This document shows positions 1 to 14,575 of a stretch of 21,115 nucleotides of DNA, piece by piece. Position 1 is the first letter of the stretch; the number at the start of each line of letters is the position of its first letter. A program made the translations under genes and the position numbers. The DNA comes from a virus. The stretch spans positions 1 to 21,115 of IMG/VR virus record IMGVR_UViG_3300043411_000609; one strand, 5' to 3'. The notes under the pieces are model-generated. The model saw only the letters and a program-made list of their open reading frames with translations, had not been told where the DNA came from and did not search any database.

Positions 1-1933
1 CATCGTAATCAGAACGATGAGAGTTTGTAGACCTAGCAGAACCAGTAGCATCGCCGTCGATCTCGTATTGGTATCCATGTTTGATTATGCCTCTGTCAAA
101 GAATTCGTCCATTATGTCGTCAGTCCTTGCACCCTCTACGATTACTTCGTGGAAGATGTGGAAGACGTCGTCTTGATAGCACATTGCAACAGCAGACATA
201 GGTTTGCCGTAACCGATGTTAAAGTCAAACGATATGATGATTGTTGTGTTGTCTCTAGGTTTCCATGGCTCTTTTGAGTACTGCTTATCAGAGTTGTACT
301 CGTAATAGATCACCTCTTCTCTAATCTCAATCCACTGCCCGTAAAGCATGCGCAGAGCCATCTTGGGATCTAAGTCACGCTTTAGCTGTTCGATGTACTG
401 CGGAGGAAGATACGGGTTGTCTTCGGTCCGGCTGTAGTAGACGTGTCTGGTCGGATGCTTTTGTCCACCCGAGTTTGGCTCAATGAAACGCTTATACACC
501 CAATGGCTTGGTGATCCCGGGTTTGTGGCAGAGATAATTAAAGGTGTTTTAATGTGCGGTAATCGGCCGAGACGAAACGATGTCTCAACATAGGCCTGCG
601 ATTCTTCCTCGTTGTTCTCGGTTAACTCCTCAAAGCAGGCAAGAGATAGCTCAAGAGACCTAAGCTTTGAGTAATGTTTGTCGGCCCAAGATCTCGAGAT
701 AATGCTGCTGCCGTTTCGAAAGTTGATACGTGCAATCGAATCAAGCGTGTCGTAGTAAGACTCGTCGACAGAACCAAGATGCTCTATGATCTTTTTGTAG
801 AGCGTATCTTTTAAGTCCGGCAGAGCACGCCTACCCATCATGATATTAGCGCGTATGTTTTCTACTGCGTGTCTAATTGCAACATGTGCAAGTAAAATGC
901 TCTTCGCACTGTTGTGGTGTTGATACCCATTTGCAACATAATTATGAGTATTAGGAACCTGAATGTCCCAATACCATTCCTCCTTGTCAAGCCTCTCTAT
1001 TTTCAATATGGTGCTATTGGTATAACCAACGTCAATACTAAGGATATCAAGCAATGCAGGCAAAAGACCGGAGAGAATTGATCGCAAGTCTTGCGGATGG
1101 GCGGTATGCATCTGAAATAGCAAAGATTGTAGGATGCCGGACAAAATACGTGCATAAGATTTTGAATCGTCCTGAGTACAAACATCTTCAGCGCCCAAAG
1201 GTCGGGCCGCCAAGAGGCGATTTAAATCCTGCATGGACCGGTGGAAGGGTGATTCAACGTTGTGGGAGAGTATTATCTCCCGCCCCAACCGGTCATCCAT
1301 TGGCGCGCATTTATTCATACAAAAAAATAGGCCGTGTTCTGGAGCATCGCCTTGTGATGGAAAAAACTCTAGGACGTTTTTTAGAAGAGAAAGAAGTTGT
1401 TGATCACATTGACGGATGTGTTTTGCACAATGACCCAAAAAACTTAAGAGTATTTGAGAGCAATGCAGAACACCTTCGCGCAACAATAACCGGGTTGCCG
1501 CACGATGTTCATTCAACAGGACGTGAGGCGCTGAAATCGGAAAACAAATCTTTGCCAGGTCGTAAACGCTGGAGTAGGTACAAGGAGATGTGGCGAGTAG
1601 GTGATGCCCGCTTGCTACAAATTCTCCATGCTCACCTATTACTCGATAGAGATAGTCCTTACCTTTTGGGAACGCAGCGCTACTTGGCGTTAGCGCAAAT
1701 CGACCCGTCTTCTCGTGAAAACTTAAAAGACGCTTTGATCCATCTATGCTTGAAATGGGAACTAACCCACAAGATGTCTGCACTAAAGCATCTTCTCTAA
1801 GACACCCAATACTGCCCGAGAGAAGTATCTCATGCGTGCCGAGTGAGTAATCAAAGGTAGCGATGTCTCGCAAGATCTTTGCTTGCATCGGCAGAGGAAC
1901 AAACTCTGCAAGTGTGGGAGTTGAGCCGATCAT
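1..1933 (-). CDS. terL: Terminase large subunit, interrupted by an intein; runs off the left edge
   Basis: This is the ATPase-nuclease motor that packages phage DNA into the prohead. The frame opens at ATG 1933, overlapping the TGA of the small subunit as ATGA, and stays open on the minus strand to base 1. The first 43 residues end in LLSGSIG. After a 298-residue intein (1804-911) the protein resumes with SAKSILLAHVAIRH, so splicing rebuilds the Walker A motif GSIGSAKS. Walker B is seen as LSLACFEEL. Past the ATPase domain the RNase H-like nuclease begins with SFDFN and IDGDATG, whose aspartates fit the metal-binding site. The C-terminus lies outside the window. The frame is easy to miss because it has no stop inside the window. 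The family call is sure. That active TerL needs protein splicing is inferred, because the uninterrupted P-loop cannot form without it. Confidence 0.95.
   Translation of the reverse strand, partial: MIGSTPTLAEFVPLPMQAKILRDIATFDYSLGTHEILLSGSIGCLREDALVQTSCGLVPISSIDGSKRLLSFHEKTGRFALTPSSAAFPKGKDYLYRVIGEHGEFVASGHHLLATSPCTYSSVYDLAKICFPISAPHVLLNEHRAATRLLLREGVLHCSQILLSFLGHCAKHIRQCDQQLLSLLKNVLEFFPSQGDAPEHGLFFCMNKCAPMDDRLGREIILSHNVESPFHRSMQDLNRLLAARPLGAEDVCTQDDSKSYARILSGILQSLLFQMHTAHPQDLRSILSGLLPALLDILSIDVGYTNSTILKIERLDKEEWYWDIQVPNTHNYVANGYQHHNSAKSILLAHVAIRHAVENIRANIMMGRRALPDLKDTLYKKIIEHLGSVDESYYDTLDSIARINFRNGSSIISRSWADKHYSKLRSLELSLACFEELTENNEEESQAYVETSFRLGRLPHIKTPLIISATNPGSPSHWVYKRFIEPNSGGQKHPTRHVYYSRTEDNPYLPPQYIEQLKRDLDPKMALRMLYGQWIEIREEVIYYEYNSDKQYSKEPWKPRDNTTIIISFDFNIGYGKPMSAVAMCYQDDVFHIFHEVIVEGARTDDIMDEFFDRGIIKHGYQYEIDGDATGSARSTNSHRSDYD
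911..1804 (-). other. Intein in the Walker A loop of TerL, with Hint domains flanking an antisense HNH gene
   Basis: This 298-residue in-frame insert begins at Cys1 (codon 1804-1802) with CLREDALVQTSCGLVPI, a typical intein block A. Block B follows as RVIGEHGEFVASGHHLLAT. The C-terminal splicing region reads WDIQVPNTHNYVANGYQHHN (blocks F and G), with penultimate His and last Asn (913-911), and the next extein residue is Ser. These are the residues of a class 1 intein (Cys1, His-Asn, +1 Ser), so it looks able to splice. The stretch between the two splicing regions, about residues 100-255, shows no LAGLIDADG or HNH motif in the intein frame. It is the antisense of the HNH gene at 1054-1800, yet contains no stop. 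Inteins in phage terminase P-loops are known. An endonuclease coded on the opposite strand is not the usual layout. Confidence 0.93.
1054..1800 (+). CDS. HNH homing endonuclease, encoded antisense within the TerL intein
   Basis: This 248-residue protein resembles the mobile HNH endonucleases common in phages. Residues 5-37 (RRELIASLADGRYASEIAKI and on) look like a helix-turn-helix DNA-binding segment. Residues 55-66 (GDLNPAWTGGRV) and 96-142 carry the HNH core: LEHRLVMEKTLGRFL, VVDHIDG, NDPKNLRVF and NAEHLR, with likely active-site residues His98, Asp117-His118, Asn130 and His140. An AAGGA site lies 9 bases before ATG 1054. The gene lies wholly inside the intein (911-1804) on the other strand, so it would move with it. 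About the last 70-80 residues, after GRKRW near 173, are antisense to the Hint N-terminal domain and match nothing I know. They may be a by-product of read-through to the first stop. The likely role is to cut intein-free terL alleles and promote homing; this is inferred. Confidence 0.88.
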   Translation: MQAKDRRELIASLADGRYASEIAKIVGCRTKYVHKILNRPEYKHLQRPKVGPPRGDLNPAWTGGRVIQRCGRVLSPAPTGHPLARIYSYKKIGRVLEHRLVMEKTLGRFLEEKEVVDHIDGCVLHNDPKNLRVFESNAEHLRATITGLPHDVHSTGREALKSENKSLPGRKRWSRYKEMWRVGDARLLQILHAHLLLDRDSPYLLGTQRYLALAQIDPSSRENLKDALIHLCLKWELTHKMSALKHLL

Positions 1934-2322
1934 TCTTTAAGAAGATCTTTTGGATTATACCCGAGGATAATAGGCTTAGCGTCATCACCTGACACCTCAA
2001 CTCTATCTGTCCACTTGAATCTGTTTTTCATTTGAAAACAGTAATTGCCAGTGTTGAGAGTCTTACCATCTGGCTCATTCCAAATGCCTTCGATGCCTAT
2101 AGACTCCCAAAATAGTTGACATTTTAGGAATGCTTCTTTTTTGGCGTCAACATACTCTGGGTGTTTTTCTTCCCAATCGTACATTGTTTGTTTTGATACA
2201 TTGACGACAGCCCCAAAGGTTTCATAGCTAAATCCCTTGGACATATGTTCAACGAGCAATTTGCAATATTCTGGTTTGTATAGTGTAGGACGGCCACCGG
2301 GGCCTTTCGGACTAGCTTCCAT
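1930..2322 (-). CDS. terS: Terminase small subunit
   Basis: A 130-residue DNA-recognition subunit of the packaging terminase. Residues 9-50 (GGRPTLYKPEYCKLLVEHM and on) match the N-terminal helix-turn-helix region of phage small terminases, including the FGAVVNVSKQTMYDWEEKHPE segment, where a resolvase-like HTH reads DNA. The C-terminal part (ESIGIEGIWNEP, YCFQMKNRFKWTD) is typical of this group. I chose ATG 2322 because GGGAG lies 8 bases before it; an in-frame GTG at 2343 would add 7 residues without a comparable site. The stop overlaps the TerL start as ATGA, indicating translational coupling. The gene stands at the head of the minus-strand packaging operon. Confidence 0.9.
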   Translation of the reverse strand: MEASPKGPGGRPTLYKPEYCKLLVEHMSKGFSYETFGAVVNVSKQTMYDWEEKHPEYVDAKKEAFLKCQLFWESIGIEGIWNEPDGKTLNTGNYCFQMKNRFKWTDRVEVSGDDAKPIILGYNPKDLLKE

Positions 2323-2418
2323 GCTAATAACTCCCTTGCTCACAGAGCAGACGGTTTAAAACCCACAGGATTTTATTTTTATTGTCAAGCATGGCACAAA
2401 TCTAGGATTACCGCAAGT

Positions 2419-2446
2419 TTGGCGGTTACAAGATCCGTGGTAAAAT
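2419..2446 (+). promoter_or_regulatory. Probable sigma70-type promoter for the phosphoesterase gene
   Basis: TTGGCG (2419-2424) and TAAAAT (2441-2446) are separated by 16 bases and lie just upstream of the GGAGG site and ATG 2473. The 150-base gap is shared by divergent genes. On the minus strand a TTGACA (2388-2383) points toward terS, but I see no good -10 at normal spacing. Confidence 0.45.
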
Positions 2447-2472
2447 AAATAAACTATTACGACGGAGGTGCT

Positions 2473-3213
2473 ATGGAGCGTACGGCCCTTGTGCTCAGTG
2501 ATCTACACTATCCACATGTTGACCCTAAGTACATATCCATCGCAACCTCCCTCATAAAATATCTAAAGCCCGACTACGTGATCCAATGCGGAGATGCATT
2601 AGATGCTTCAACTATTAGCAGTTACACACAAAATCCTAAGATTACAAATCGCCTGATTGACGAGATAGAAGCTTACCGTAAACAGCTTGATGTGTGGCAA
2701 AAAATTATGGTTCCTGGAAGCGTCTTTCACCAATTAGAAGGGAACCATTCTGAGCGTCTCCAGCGCTTTGTGGCAAAGAACTGTAAGGAAATACATCAGC
2801 TCGTAAATGACATTCCAACAATGCTTGGCTTCAAAGAAAGGAACAAAGGTGGTGTTAAGTTCGTTTGGCATCCTCTATATAAGTGGGACTCGTGCAAAAT
2901 TGGTGACGTTGTATTTCACCACGGAACTTACTACGACAAGAATCTAGCCGTCACAAACCTTACCAGATATCCAGGCGTCAACTTCTGTCAGGGCCATGCC
3001 CATAGGTACAGCCATGCAGCGGCTAACGGCTTTTGGAGTGTGAGTCTTGGTCACGGCTCACTTGCGCACAAAACCGCACACATTCACGCGCCTAATACGA
3101 CATGGCAACAAGCTATGGGCGTGGTCACGTTCATTAGCGGTAAAGGCCACTTTGAGCCTATCCTTGTAAACAATGGAAAGGCGGTCTTTCGTGGCAAAGA
3201 ATTCAAAGCCTAG
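2473..3213 (+). CDS. Calcineurin-like metallophosphoesterase
   Basis: A 246-residue two-metal phosphoesterase. The metal-binding motifs appear in family order: LSDLHYPH (DxH, residues 9-14), CGDALD (GDxxD, near 41), EGNHSER (GNH, near 90), FHHG (near 151) and GHAHRYSH (GHxH, near 176). This is the full set expected for an active enzyme. Phage members of this family are often annotated as DNA repair or nucleotide phosphatases; the substrate cannot be read from the sequence. A GGAGGTG site directly precedes ATG 2473. It overlaps the start of the next gene and forms a two-gene plus-strand unit divergent from the terminase operon. Confidence 0.88.
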   Translation: MERTALVLSDLHYPHVDPKYISIATSLIKYLKPDYVIQCGDALDASTISSYTQNPKITNRLIDEIEAYRKQLDVWQKIMVPGSVFHQLEGNHSERLQRFVAKNCKEIHQLVNDIPTMLGFKERNKGGVKFVWHPLYKWDSCKIGDVVFHHGTYYDKNLAVTNLTRYPGVNFCQGHAHRYSHAAANGFWSVSLGHGSLAHKTAHIHAPNTTWQQAMGVVTFISGKGHFEPILVNNGKAVFRGKEFKA

Positions 3214-3490
3214 ACGCAAACGCGTTATCAATATCATGGGGACTAAGGTCAAAGTACGCTACACGTCTAAGGTCCTTTACGACGGGGACGAAGAGCTTCA
3301 CGGAGCTTTCTACGCTGATACTATGACGGTCTTTGTCAGCAACAAATCAGCCGTTCATGAGACGCTATGCCATGAAATTTTCCATAGTTTTTTGGCCATC
3401 AGCGGCTACAATCAAGGCATGTCCGCAGCTACTGAAGAGGGTTTGACCCGTGCCTTTGAGCATGCGTTTTCAAAGTATCTTAAGTTCTAG
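3191..3490 (+). CDS. Small HExxH zinc metallopeptidase-like protein
   Basis: The protein contains VHETLCHEIFHSFLAISG, an HExxH zinc motif, followed by TEEGLTRAFEHAF, where a glutamate could be the third ligand. The pattern resembles the small phage relatives of SprT and ImmA/IrrE metalloproteins. The preceding strands (KVRYTSKVLYDGDEELHGAF, then MTVFVS) are typical of their N-terminal part. The start is uncertain. GTG 3191 has an AAAGG site 9 bases upstream and overlaps the phosphoesterase by 23 bases. ATG 3236 (84 residues) and ATG 3173 are also possible but have weak sites. A role as phage protease is inferred; many such proteins have no known substrate. Confidence 0.7.
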   Translation: MAKNSKPRRKRVINIMGTKVKVRYTSKVLYDGDEELHGAFYADTMTVFVSNKSAVHETLCHEIFHSFLAISGYNQGMSAATEEGLTRAFEHAFSKYLKF

Positions 3491-3602
3491 TTTGTCAAGT
3501 GAACGATCTTGCAGAAATTAACTTTATTATAGTGAAAATCGATCCAATTATTATATAAACAAAAACAAAGCCTTATGAAGGTTGTCGTTTAATTAATTAC
3601 CT

Positions 3603-3622
3603 AAGGTAAAACCCGTTACCTT
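3603..3622. terminator. Perfect hairpin at the end of the minus-strand lipoprotein gene
   Basis: AAGGTAA (3603-3609) and TTACCTT (3616-3622) are exact inverted repeats with a 6-base loop, overlapping the stop codon of the lipoprotein gene. There is no clean T tract on either side, so it could be a weak terminator between convergent genes or an mRNA-stabilising hairpin. The rest of the gap 3491-3602 is AT-rich and holds no gene I can support. Confidence 0.4.
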
Positions 3623-4112
3623 ACCGAGTCAGAAGAACCTGATACAAGTCAAAGTCCCTGGTGGCTTCTGTTCTACCGTCGTTTCCTACCGAGTAGAAGA
3701 CACCCATGTCGATATAAATGCCCTCATTAGGATTATTACGCCACGTAGCGTAGTAAGACTCGCCTGGCGTGAAGTATTCGAACCCTTCGGAGTCTCCAGA
3801 TAGTTGGTGGCTAACGTAGACCAGGTCAACGTTGTAGACGCCTTTGCCGTCGTCGCCAGTAACTTTGTAGTCTCTGGTCATCTCTGCTGACGCTGTCTCT
3901 TTTAGGCATGTTGCGTCGTCAAACTTTTTGATCGTGACTTTTGACGTCGTATTCGTATTTTCTACGCGCACTATCTGTTGGTACTTACACTCAGACTGAA
4001 AGTTACCATAGAAGCTTACAGGTACTTTGGCGTCTGCTGATGCTGGTGTGTGGTCGTTTGACTGACCGCATGAACTAAGAGCAACTGACATTATGAATAG
4101 AAAGTTACGCAT
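3621..4112 (-). CDS. Predicted phage-encoded lipoprotein
   Basis: 163 residues. The N-terminus (MRNFLFIMSVALSSCGQSND) is a short type II signal peptide with lipobox LSSC, so Cys15 is the predicted lipidation site. The mature part begins with a low-complexity tether (DHTPASADA) and continues as alternating polar and hydrophobic strands with two further cysteines (SECKY and ATCLK) that could form a disulfide. I recognise no family. An AGGAGG site lies 5 bases before ATG 4112. It is transcribed against its neighbours together with a tiny membrane protein (4193-4291), the layout of an independently expressed 'moron'. Phage lipoproteins sometimes block superinfection or alter the host surface; that role is a guess here. 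Confidence 0.75.
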   Translation of the reverse strand: MRNFLFIMSVALSSCGQSNDHTPASADAKVPVSFYGNFQSECKYQQIVRVENTNTTSKVTIKKFDDATCLKETASAEMTRDYKVTGDDGKGVYNVDLVYVSHQLSGDSEGFEYFTPGESYYATWRNNPNEGIYIDMGVFYSVGNDGRTEATRDFDLYQVLLTR

Positions 4113-4192
4113 AGGGCCTCCTGTTTGCTGATAACCCCTTATCGGTATCCTGTGGGTAAACTTGAGGCCTATTTTGTAAGCTATTGATTTGC

Positions 4193-4291
4193 CTACCTAG
4201 CCCAGACCGTAACAAGCCCCGCCAGGGACACAAGCAGCTGCATTAAACTGATGATTATGAGTAAGCCGATAGCACCAAGGATGTTTTTCAT
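4193..4291 (-). CDS. Tiny single-span membrane protein
   Basis: A 32-residue product, almost entirely one hydrophobic helix: MKNILGAIGLLIIISLMQLL followed by VSLAGLVTVWAR. GGGGAG lies 5 bases before ATG 4291. It precedes the lipoprotein gene on the same strand by about 80 bases and is probably cotranscribed with it. No family is recognised. A toxin-like, holin-like or small regulatory membrane peptide are all possible. It is too short to be certain, but the ribosome site and clean hydrophobic character support it. Confidence 0.5.
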   Translation of the reverse strand: MKNILGAIGLLIIISLMQLLVSLAGLVTVWAR

Positions 4292-4522
4292 AAGGTCTCC
4301 CCGTCTGAGTTTTGGATTTTCAACCTACCAAATTCCCAAAATTCTGCCTCAATTTTCTTCAAGGCTTCATAGAATCTTTTATAAAACCAAAATCCTAAAT
4401 AGTTACCTACAGTCTACACTGTATACGTTGTAGGCAATATGTCAGGTACTTTACTAAACATAACCTATGTAAAAATTATACAGCTTATTTATTGAGCAAG
4501 CTCATAAAAAATTTGAACTTAT

Positions 4523-14315: not shown

Positions 14316-14575
14316 GAGTTTTGTCTAAGCAAAATCTTTGTGGCGATGGCTATGGCTATGGCTATGGCTATGGCAATGGCTATGGCTCTGGCTATGGCTC
14401 TGGCGATGGCAATGGCTCTGGCTCTGGCGATGGCAATGGCAATGGCTATGGCTCTGGCTCTGGCTATGGCTCTGGCTATGGCTCTGGCGATGGCAATGGC
14501 TCTGGCTATGGCTATGGCTATGGCGATGGCTATGGCAATGGCAATGGCTCTGGCTCTGGCTATGGCTCTGGCTGA
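14303..14575 (+). CDS. Gly-X dipeptide repeat protein
   Basis: 90 residues. A 13-residue leader (MESIRVLSKQNLC) is followed by 38 Gly-X pairs and a last Gly. X is Tyr 14 times, Ser 12, Asn 7 and Asp 5; no other residue occurs. The chain must be flexible and extended, with evenly spaced aromatic and polar side chains; the single Cys just before the repeat could anchor it. The start overlaps the DUF6948-like gene, so the pair is probably coupled. Function unknown. The leader is non-repetitive and in phase with a normal start, so I take the gene as real rather than a chance frame. Confidence 0.7.
   Translation: MESIRVLSKQNLCGDGYGYGYGYGNGYGSGYGSGDGNGSGSGDGNGNGYGSGSGYGSGYGSGDGNGSGYGYGYGDGYGNGNGSGSGYGSG
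14342..14572 (+). repeat. Hexanucleotide repeat tract GGC-NNT
   Basis: Every Gly codon is GGC, and every X codon is TAT, TCT, GAT or AAT, over 231 bases. Other synonymous codons are absent, so the DNA pattern itself is strict. Several frames on both strands lack stops for this reason and give false ORFs. Confidence 0.95.

Follow-up and report, generated by a model that had tools for sequence, protein, structure and literature searches.

Phage terminase inteins with a putative HNH homing endonuclease gene on the opposite strand

Inteins are described as single polypeptides that carry out protein splicing and, if they are mobile, homing as well. In 2009, Dassa et al. reportedly described split inteins whose endonuclease is not fused to the intein but stands free between its two halves. 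In large, HEN-containing inteins, which are inserted at conserved active sites, the splicing blocks A, B, F and G belong to the same polypeptide as a LAGLIDADG or HNH endonuclease that is nested in frame between blocks B and F. The dCTP deaminase intein of cyanophage CL131, with its in-frame HNH_3 domain, is of this kind (PMC6293099). Phage TerL is also a known intein host; the mycobacteriophage inteins TerL1-a/b lie in the Walker A loop, and the paper that describes them makes no mention of an opposite-strand gene, the words 'opposite' and 'free-standing' being absent from it (PMC5050341).

Antisense homing endonuclease genes are established in nuclear group I introns, and one of them, I-DsqI in the Didymium L2066 intron, is expressed and active (PMC9548176). 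In the phage methylase genes of ShiLan and Pacc40, out-of-frame HNH insertions have been described: the insertion is in frame with the host gene and free of stops, and the HNH gene occupies a different reading frame; it shares the transcript of its host gene, no splicing domain is present and no ribosome-binding site was detected by the authors (PMC11855218).

The DNA analysed here, termed the window, is a stretch of 21,115 nucleotides that makes up positions 1 to 21,115 of IMG/VR virus record IMGVR_UViG_3300043411_000609. Its TerL gene runs on the minus strand from position 1933 to the contig edge, and a 298-residue intein splits its Walker A loop between LLSGSIG and SAKS. On the plus strand, an open reading frame for an HNH protein lies wholly within the intein, its stop codon ending 4 nt from base 1 of the Cys1 codon. 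The features of the locus are as follows.

2..910, minus strand: TerL C-extein (Terminase_3, by Pfam), running off the contig end
911..1804, minus strand: intein of 298 aa (TerL residues 44-341), from Cys1 to Asn298, ending ...GYQHHN and followed by the +1 Ser of SAKS
911..931, minus strand: intein block G (NGYQHHN), directly before the +1 Ser
932..979, minus strand: intein block F (EWYWDIQVPNTHNYVA), by family conservation and domain match
984..1012, plus strand: promoter-like site TTGTCA-N17-TATGGT, 9/12, at the family's conserved offset, 73 from the intein edge
1039..1044, plus strand: Shine-Dalgarno TAAGGA, 9 nt before the HNH ATG
1040..1507, minus strand: linker between blocks B and F, where the TerL frame is open but unconserved and pLDDT is low
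1054..1800, plus strand: putative HNH homing endonuclease gene (248 aa), antisense to the intein, by HNH profiles, conservation and structure
1054..1215, plus strand: helix-turn-helix (HTH) DNA-binding part of the HNH protein (residues 1-54), by a weak HTH_29 match, winged-helix/HTH structure matches and a Cap repeat profile match
1345..1473, plus strand: HNH motif, H98-R99 ... D117-H118 ... N126 ... N130 ... H140, in columns that are invariant or nearly so
1579..1797, plus strand: all-helical C-terminal domain (HNH protein residues 176-248), sharing its DNA with intein blocks A-B and showing flat codon-position variation
1589..1642, minus strand: intein block B region (..GEHGEFVASGHHLLAT), with His68 invariant and Ser in place of the usual Thr
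1766..1804, minus strand: intein block A (CLREDALVQTSCG), with C1, T10, G13 and I17 fully or almost fully conserved across the family
1805..1933, minus strand: TerL N-extein (residues 1-43), ending ...LLSGSIG, the first half of Walker A; insert-free relatives read GSVG/SAKS
1930..2343, minus strand: terminase small subunit, upstream of TerL, given for context

The locus resembles HEN-containing inteins in its splicing blocks, in its insertion at a conserved active site and in having endonuclease DNA between blocks B and F, and it shares the TerL Walker A loop with the mycobacteriophage inteins. Unlike in those HEN-containing elements, the two functions here lie on opposite strands: the HNH enzyme is a separate protein, and what remains in frame between the blocks is a spacer without conservation. 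The Didymium intron has the same placement of a homing gene on the strand opposite its splicing host element, but it is an RNA intron in eukaryotic rDNA with a His-Cys enzyme and no second frame that must stay open. The split inteins share an endonuclease unfused to the intein, but there the host gene and intein are themselves split, whereas here intein and HNH gene overlap base for base. ShiLan and Pacc40 differ in the ways given above, and the ShiLan HNH protein is distantly related to that of the window by a tblastn match. The original prediction named no described example of an opposite-strand endonuclease gene in an intein, and none was found in the open-access literature, the scope of the search. 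As far as that search reaches, the parts are known and the two-strand architecture is new. In another part of the window (14341-14573), about 39 copies of the 6-bp unit TGGCTA leave several frames open on both strands.

On the minus strand, TerL is recognised in its frame by Pfam and NCBIfam. The original prediction, made by reading the sequence, placed blocks A, B, F and G in this frame together with Cys1, an HHN end and a +1 Ser; the intein is confirmed at 1804..911, base-exact. The NCBIfam intein_Cterm profile matches above its cut-off and Pfam Intein_splicing matches TerL residues 303-341 (E 3.8e-05, below the gathering cut-off), while the intein profile (A5), in a comparison with mini-inteins of known structure, matches the Spl DnaX mini-intein (E 5e-8). 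The claim that this frame lacks an endonuclease motif was also borne out, as no endonuclease family was found in the TerL/intein frame by Pfam and NCBIfam profiles, even at E 10. A HEN-containing (large) intein was rejected on the grounds that no in-frame endonuclease domain lies between blocks B and F and that the linker is unconserved. At the block B position, some relatives have Ala where the window has Ser, and because the usual Thr is replaced, the splicing efficiency of the window intein is uncertain.

The plus-strand frame had been predicted to encode a full HNH endonuclease with HTH and ribosome site, and each of these parts was found. The protein matches Pfam HNH_3 above cut-off and, over residues 3-234, PHROG_10730 'HNH endonuclease' (E 5.3e-35); the HTH_29 match (residues 6-39) is weak. 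It is full length and its catalytic residues are present. The AlphaFold model built from the HNH alignment (pLDDT 86) has a confident HTH, the HNH core and a confident C-terminal helical domain, which is encoded opposite blocks A-B and reaches pLDDT 92-97 over residues 181-248. Foldseek with this model gave no match at E<=0.001 (closest solved structure weak, E 0.32); on re-alignment, the best solved match of the HNH core is I-HmuI (Z 7.0, 72 residues, rmsd 3.2), and the I-HmuI match spans residues 64-147, covering the HNH motif. In the model of the intein, residues 1-97 and 259-298 form a Hint fold, with the Ssp DnaB mini-intein as best Foldseek match (E 2e-7) among 32 at E<=0.001, and a low-confidence linker sits between them where an in-frame endonuclease would be. 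According to the models, one strand encodes a Hint fold and the other an I-HmuI-like HNH enzyme.

The arrangement extends to a large family, which goes beyond the original prediction. A total of 195 loci were collected by profile-guided scans of IMG/VR and GTDB together with a few annotated records; the sets used below, 113 loci led by HNH and 187 led by the intein, overlap and come from phages and prophages. Among the 113 loci with an HNH relative, 112 have matches to the N- and/or C-terminal intein profiles on the opposite strand, and for the other (L111) the intein was seen by eye. Where the intein profiles identified an intact intein, the HNH gene is antisense in all cases (187/187) and in sense in none. 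A search for plus-strand HNH frames in other TerL P-loop inteins had been proposed as a check, and its outcome is therefore positive. The intein-led pipeline needed one open frame and so would miss broken inteins, a bias that the HNH-led search does not have. The 187 inteins form 98 clusters at 90% and 62 clusters at 50% intein identity; C1 is present in 186, the ends are HN or KN and the +1 residue is Ser or Thr. The inteins precede the [ST]xK[ST] motif of a P-loop, and Pfam assigns all C-exteins that it recognises to Terminase_3 or Terminase_6. The register is identical in all loci checked, with HNH codon position 1 opposite TerL position 1, so that HNH positions 1, 2 and 3 correspond to TerL positions 1, 3 and 2. 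A sequencing error as the source of the plus-strand frame, which the original prediction had named as a way to be wrong, is at odds with the double-open layout in 98 of 98 non-redundant relatives. The two-strand arrangement is neither chance nor an assembly artefact.

Among isolated phages, tblastn gave nine full-length HNH matches, in eight Pectobacterium or Dickeya phages and Pseudoalteromonas phage PHS3, and end-to-end intein matches on the other strand were found in those nine phage records and no others. Against GTDB genome contigs, a single-sequence HNH query gave no match and an alignment query then gave 8; a search of plasmids yielded partial HNH matches only. In an enterobacterial group (L034, L039, L108 and L197), the HNH frames are longer, at about 330-350 codons between stops, and seem to include an additional HTH-like repeat at the N-terminus; the inteins of this group measure about 336 aa.

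Selection on the two frames was assessed by codon-position variation in 43 independent pairs of 50-95% HNH identity. Opposite the linker, variation at HNH positions 1, 2 and 3 is 0.25/0.19/0.47, with the third position highest in 43/43 pairs, which means that the HNH protein is preserved there and the second codon position of the intein is the freest. Opposite blocks A-B, the values are low and differ little (0.17/0.22/0.19), a pattern to be expected where both proteins count and both frames are constrained. In the C-extein the values are 0.33/0.26/0.59 and the third TerL position is highest in 43/43 pairs; the exteins evolve under TerL-frame constraint. HNH identity exceeds intein identity in 42/43 pairs, and the window compared individually with L011 and L012 shows HNH substitutions biased to the third position. 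When the HNH protein is held fixed and synonymous codons are redrawn, about 8 stops are expected in the intein frame, and in the converse case, with the intein protein fixed, about 7 are expected in the HNH frame; the number observed in 98 elements is 0 in both. This count also bears on the case, raised at the outset, that the antisense frame is always broken in relatives, which fails. For the window element, the antisense frame is open with P about 0.003 under codon resampling with the intein protein fixed.

Signals for expression of the antisense gene lie inside the intein. A Shine-Dalgarno of at least 4 bases precedes the HNH start in 85% of elements versus 14% of control ATGs. Family column frequencies, taken with no preselection, give TTGACA at offsets 73-78 and TATAAT at 96-101 from the C-terminal edge of the intein, 17 apart, and the promoter is perfect (12/12) in two elements. 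Sites of at least 11/12 occur in 14% of elements versus 0.8% after synonymous resampling of intein codons; across the successive controls (antisense C-extein, then shuffles, then synonymous resampling), the enrichment shrinks but persists. A direct promoter scan of the window found 3 sites versus 2.0 expected, so that the 9/12 copy by itself is within chance; it is comparison across the family that reveals a predicted consensus sigma-70 promoter of the HNH gene's own, at a fixed place inside the intein.

Intein-free relatives with an empty site, which the original prediction had suggested seeking, were found. The element is present in Enterobacter cloacae DSM 26481 (L108) and in E. coli MEI003 (L197). 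Escherichia phage PHB10 and E. coli ET729 both have the same TerL, their 3' exteins sharing 92.5% and 82.7% nt identity with L108, respectively, and in both the two flanks meet at the insertion codon with nothing between them. The nearest intein-free relative of the window TerL, L013 (61% aa identity, ungapped nt identities not being meaningful because of indels), reads GSVG/SAKS, and no HNH match was found on its contig. Supported splits of the HNH tree conflict with the TerL tree in 10/25 cases, versus 2/23 and 0/18 in split-half controls, a supporting rather than decisive result given that TerL is very diverged (mean column identity 17%); the conflict suggests movement of the element. At L022 (4920-7730), the HNH gene lacks its start and HTH while the intein is still open and intact at 205 aa, which looks like the expected loss stage; by eye, a second intein-like insert (FGGDQLVETDKG...) seemingly occurs in the same TerL. 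In L053, a single TerL gene (ORF 988-4362, minus strand) apparently combines inteins of two kinds: the P-loop is interrupted by the antisense-HNH type, and further downstream lies another insertion with an in-frame LAGLIDADG_3 domain.

Codon bias can yield long antisense ORFs, and the plus-strand frame might on that account be a by-product of intein codon choice; this reading has next to no chance, being refuted by HNH homology, by the linker varying most at the intein's own second codon position, by the enrichment of ribosome sites and promoters and by synonymous resampling. It is just as implausible that there is no intein at all and that an HNH gene has turned TerL into a pseudogene by interrupting it, as RefSeq annotates E. 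coli MEI003, in which PGAP calls TerL incomplete and HNH a gene. The TerL frame is unbroken and has the splicing blocks, a Hint fold and the Cys1 and HN ends conserved in the family, and the C-extein is still under TerL constraint; with the MEI003 TerL-intein frame open over 802 codons, the broken-TerL reading was rejected.

Two further readings accept an expressed or inherited HNH gene. The protein could serve DNA packaging as a terminase partner, its place in the intein being historical: wherever a host gene was identified from the C-extein, it is TerL, and terminase-adjacent HNH proteins are known to aid packaging according to work cited in PMC11855218. This is unlikely, since close relatives with the same TerL and no insert lack the HNH gene at that place, the gene is found inside the intein only, and the HNH and TerL trees conflict. 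Also unlikely is that the gene is mostly an inherited passenger, left by an ancient invasion of a mini-intein, open by recent ancestry and no longer homing in the window lineage. Degenerating copies such as L022 do occur and the promoter copy in the window falls short of the family consensus, but the full-length window protein with its catalytic residues and the third-position bias relative to L011 and L012 indicate continuing constraint, and short HNH matches are found at just 2 of the 187 intein loci.

The locus is very probably a mobile intein in which two genes overlap on opposite strands: the minus strand encodes a cis-splicing Hint domain, and the plus strand carries an HNH homing gene that is self-contained. 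This reading is carried by two intact and selected frames in a fixed register, by the promoter and ribosome-site signals, by empty and filled sites in close relatives and by trees that suggest movement. TerL would be translated together with the intein, and the Hint domain would excise itself post-translationally; we propose that the phage tolerates an insert in the Walker A loop for this reason. The antisense sigma-70 promoter and ribosome site would give an HNH mRNA independent of TerL. In TerL alleles that have no intein, the P-loop DNA would be cut or nicked by the HNH protein, and the intein would be copied in during repair; an I-HmuI-like enzyme may only nick rather than cut. TerL is usually a late gene, so the antisense promoter would, speculatively, let homing start without the late transcript, an independence that we infer to be advantageous.

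The two-strand design explains annotation errors in several records. RefSeq lists the antisense HNH gene of E. coli MEI003 (NZ_CP071263.1) and marks TerL incomplete; in Pectobacterium phages Sabo and Pappous (L025, L026), HNH was missed in the deposited annotation; and in PHS3 (L027), the deposited TerL is truncated at the intein and HNH is listed as a separate gene. Surveys that seek in-frame endonucleases would class such inteins as endonuclease-free.

Mobile inteins of this two-strand type quite probably form a class that is widespread in phage TerL, with a base-for-base overlap in one fixed register, about 75 codons doubly coding two functional domains, splicing that would follow the host gene and homing that would be controlled independently. 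The dual coding of the HNH C-terminal domain with blocks A-B, which like the promoter had no place in the original prediction, is of a kind rarely seen in prokaryotes, an antisense overlap in which the same DNA encodes two functional but unrelated protein domains. Placing splicing and homing on opposite strands alters the ways in which intein mobility can be timed and a mini-intein invaded by a homing gene.
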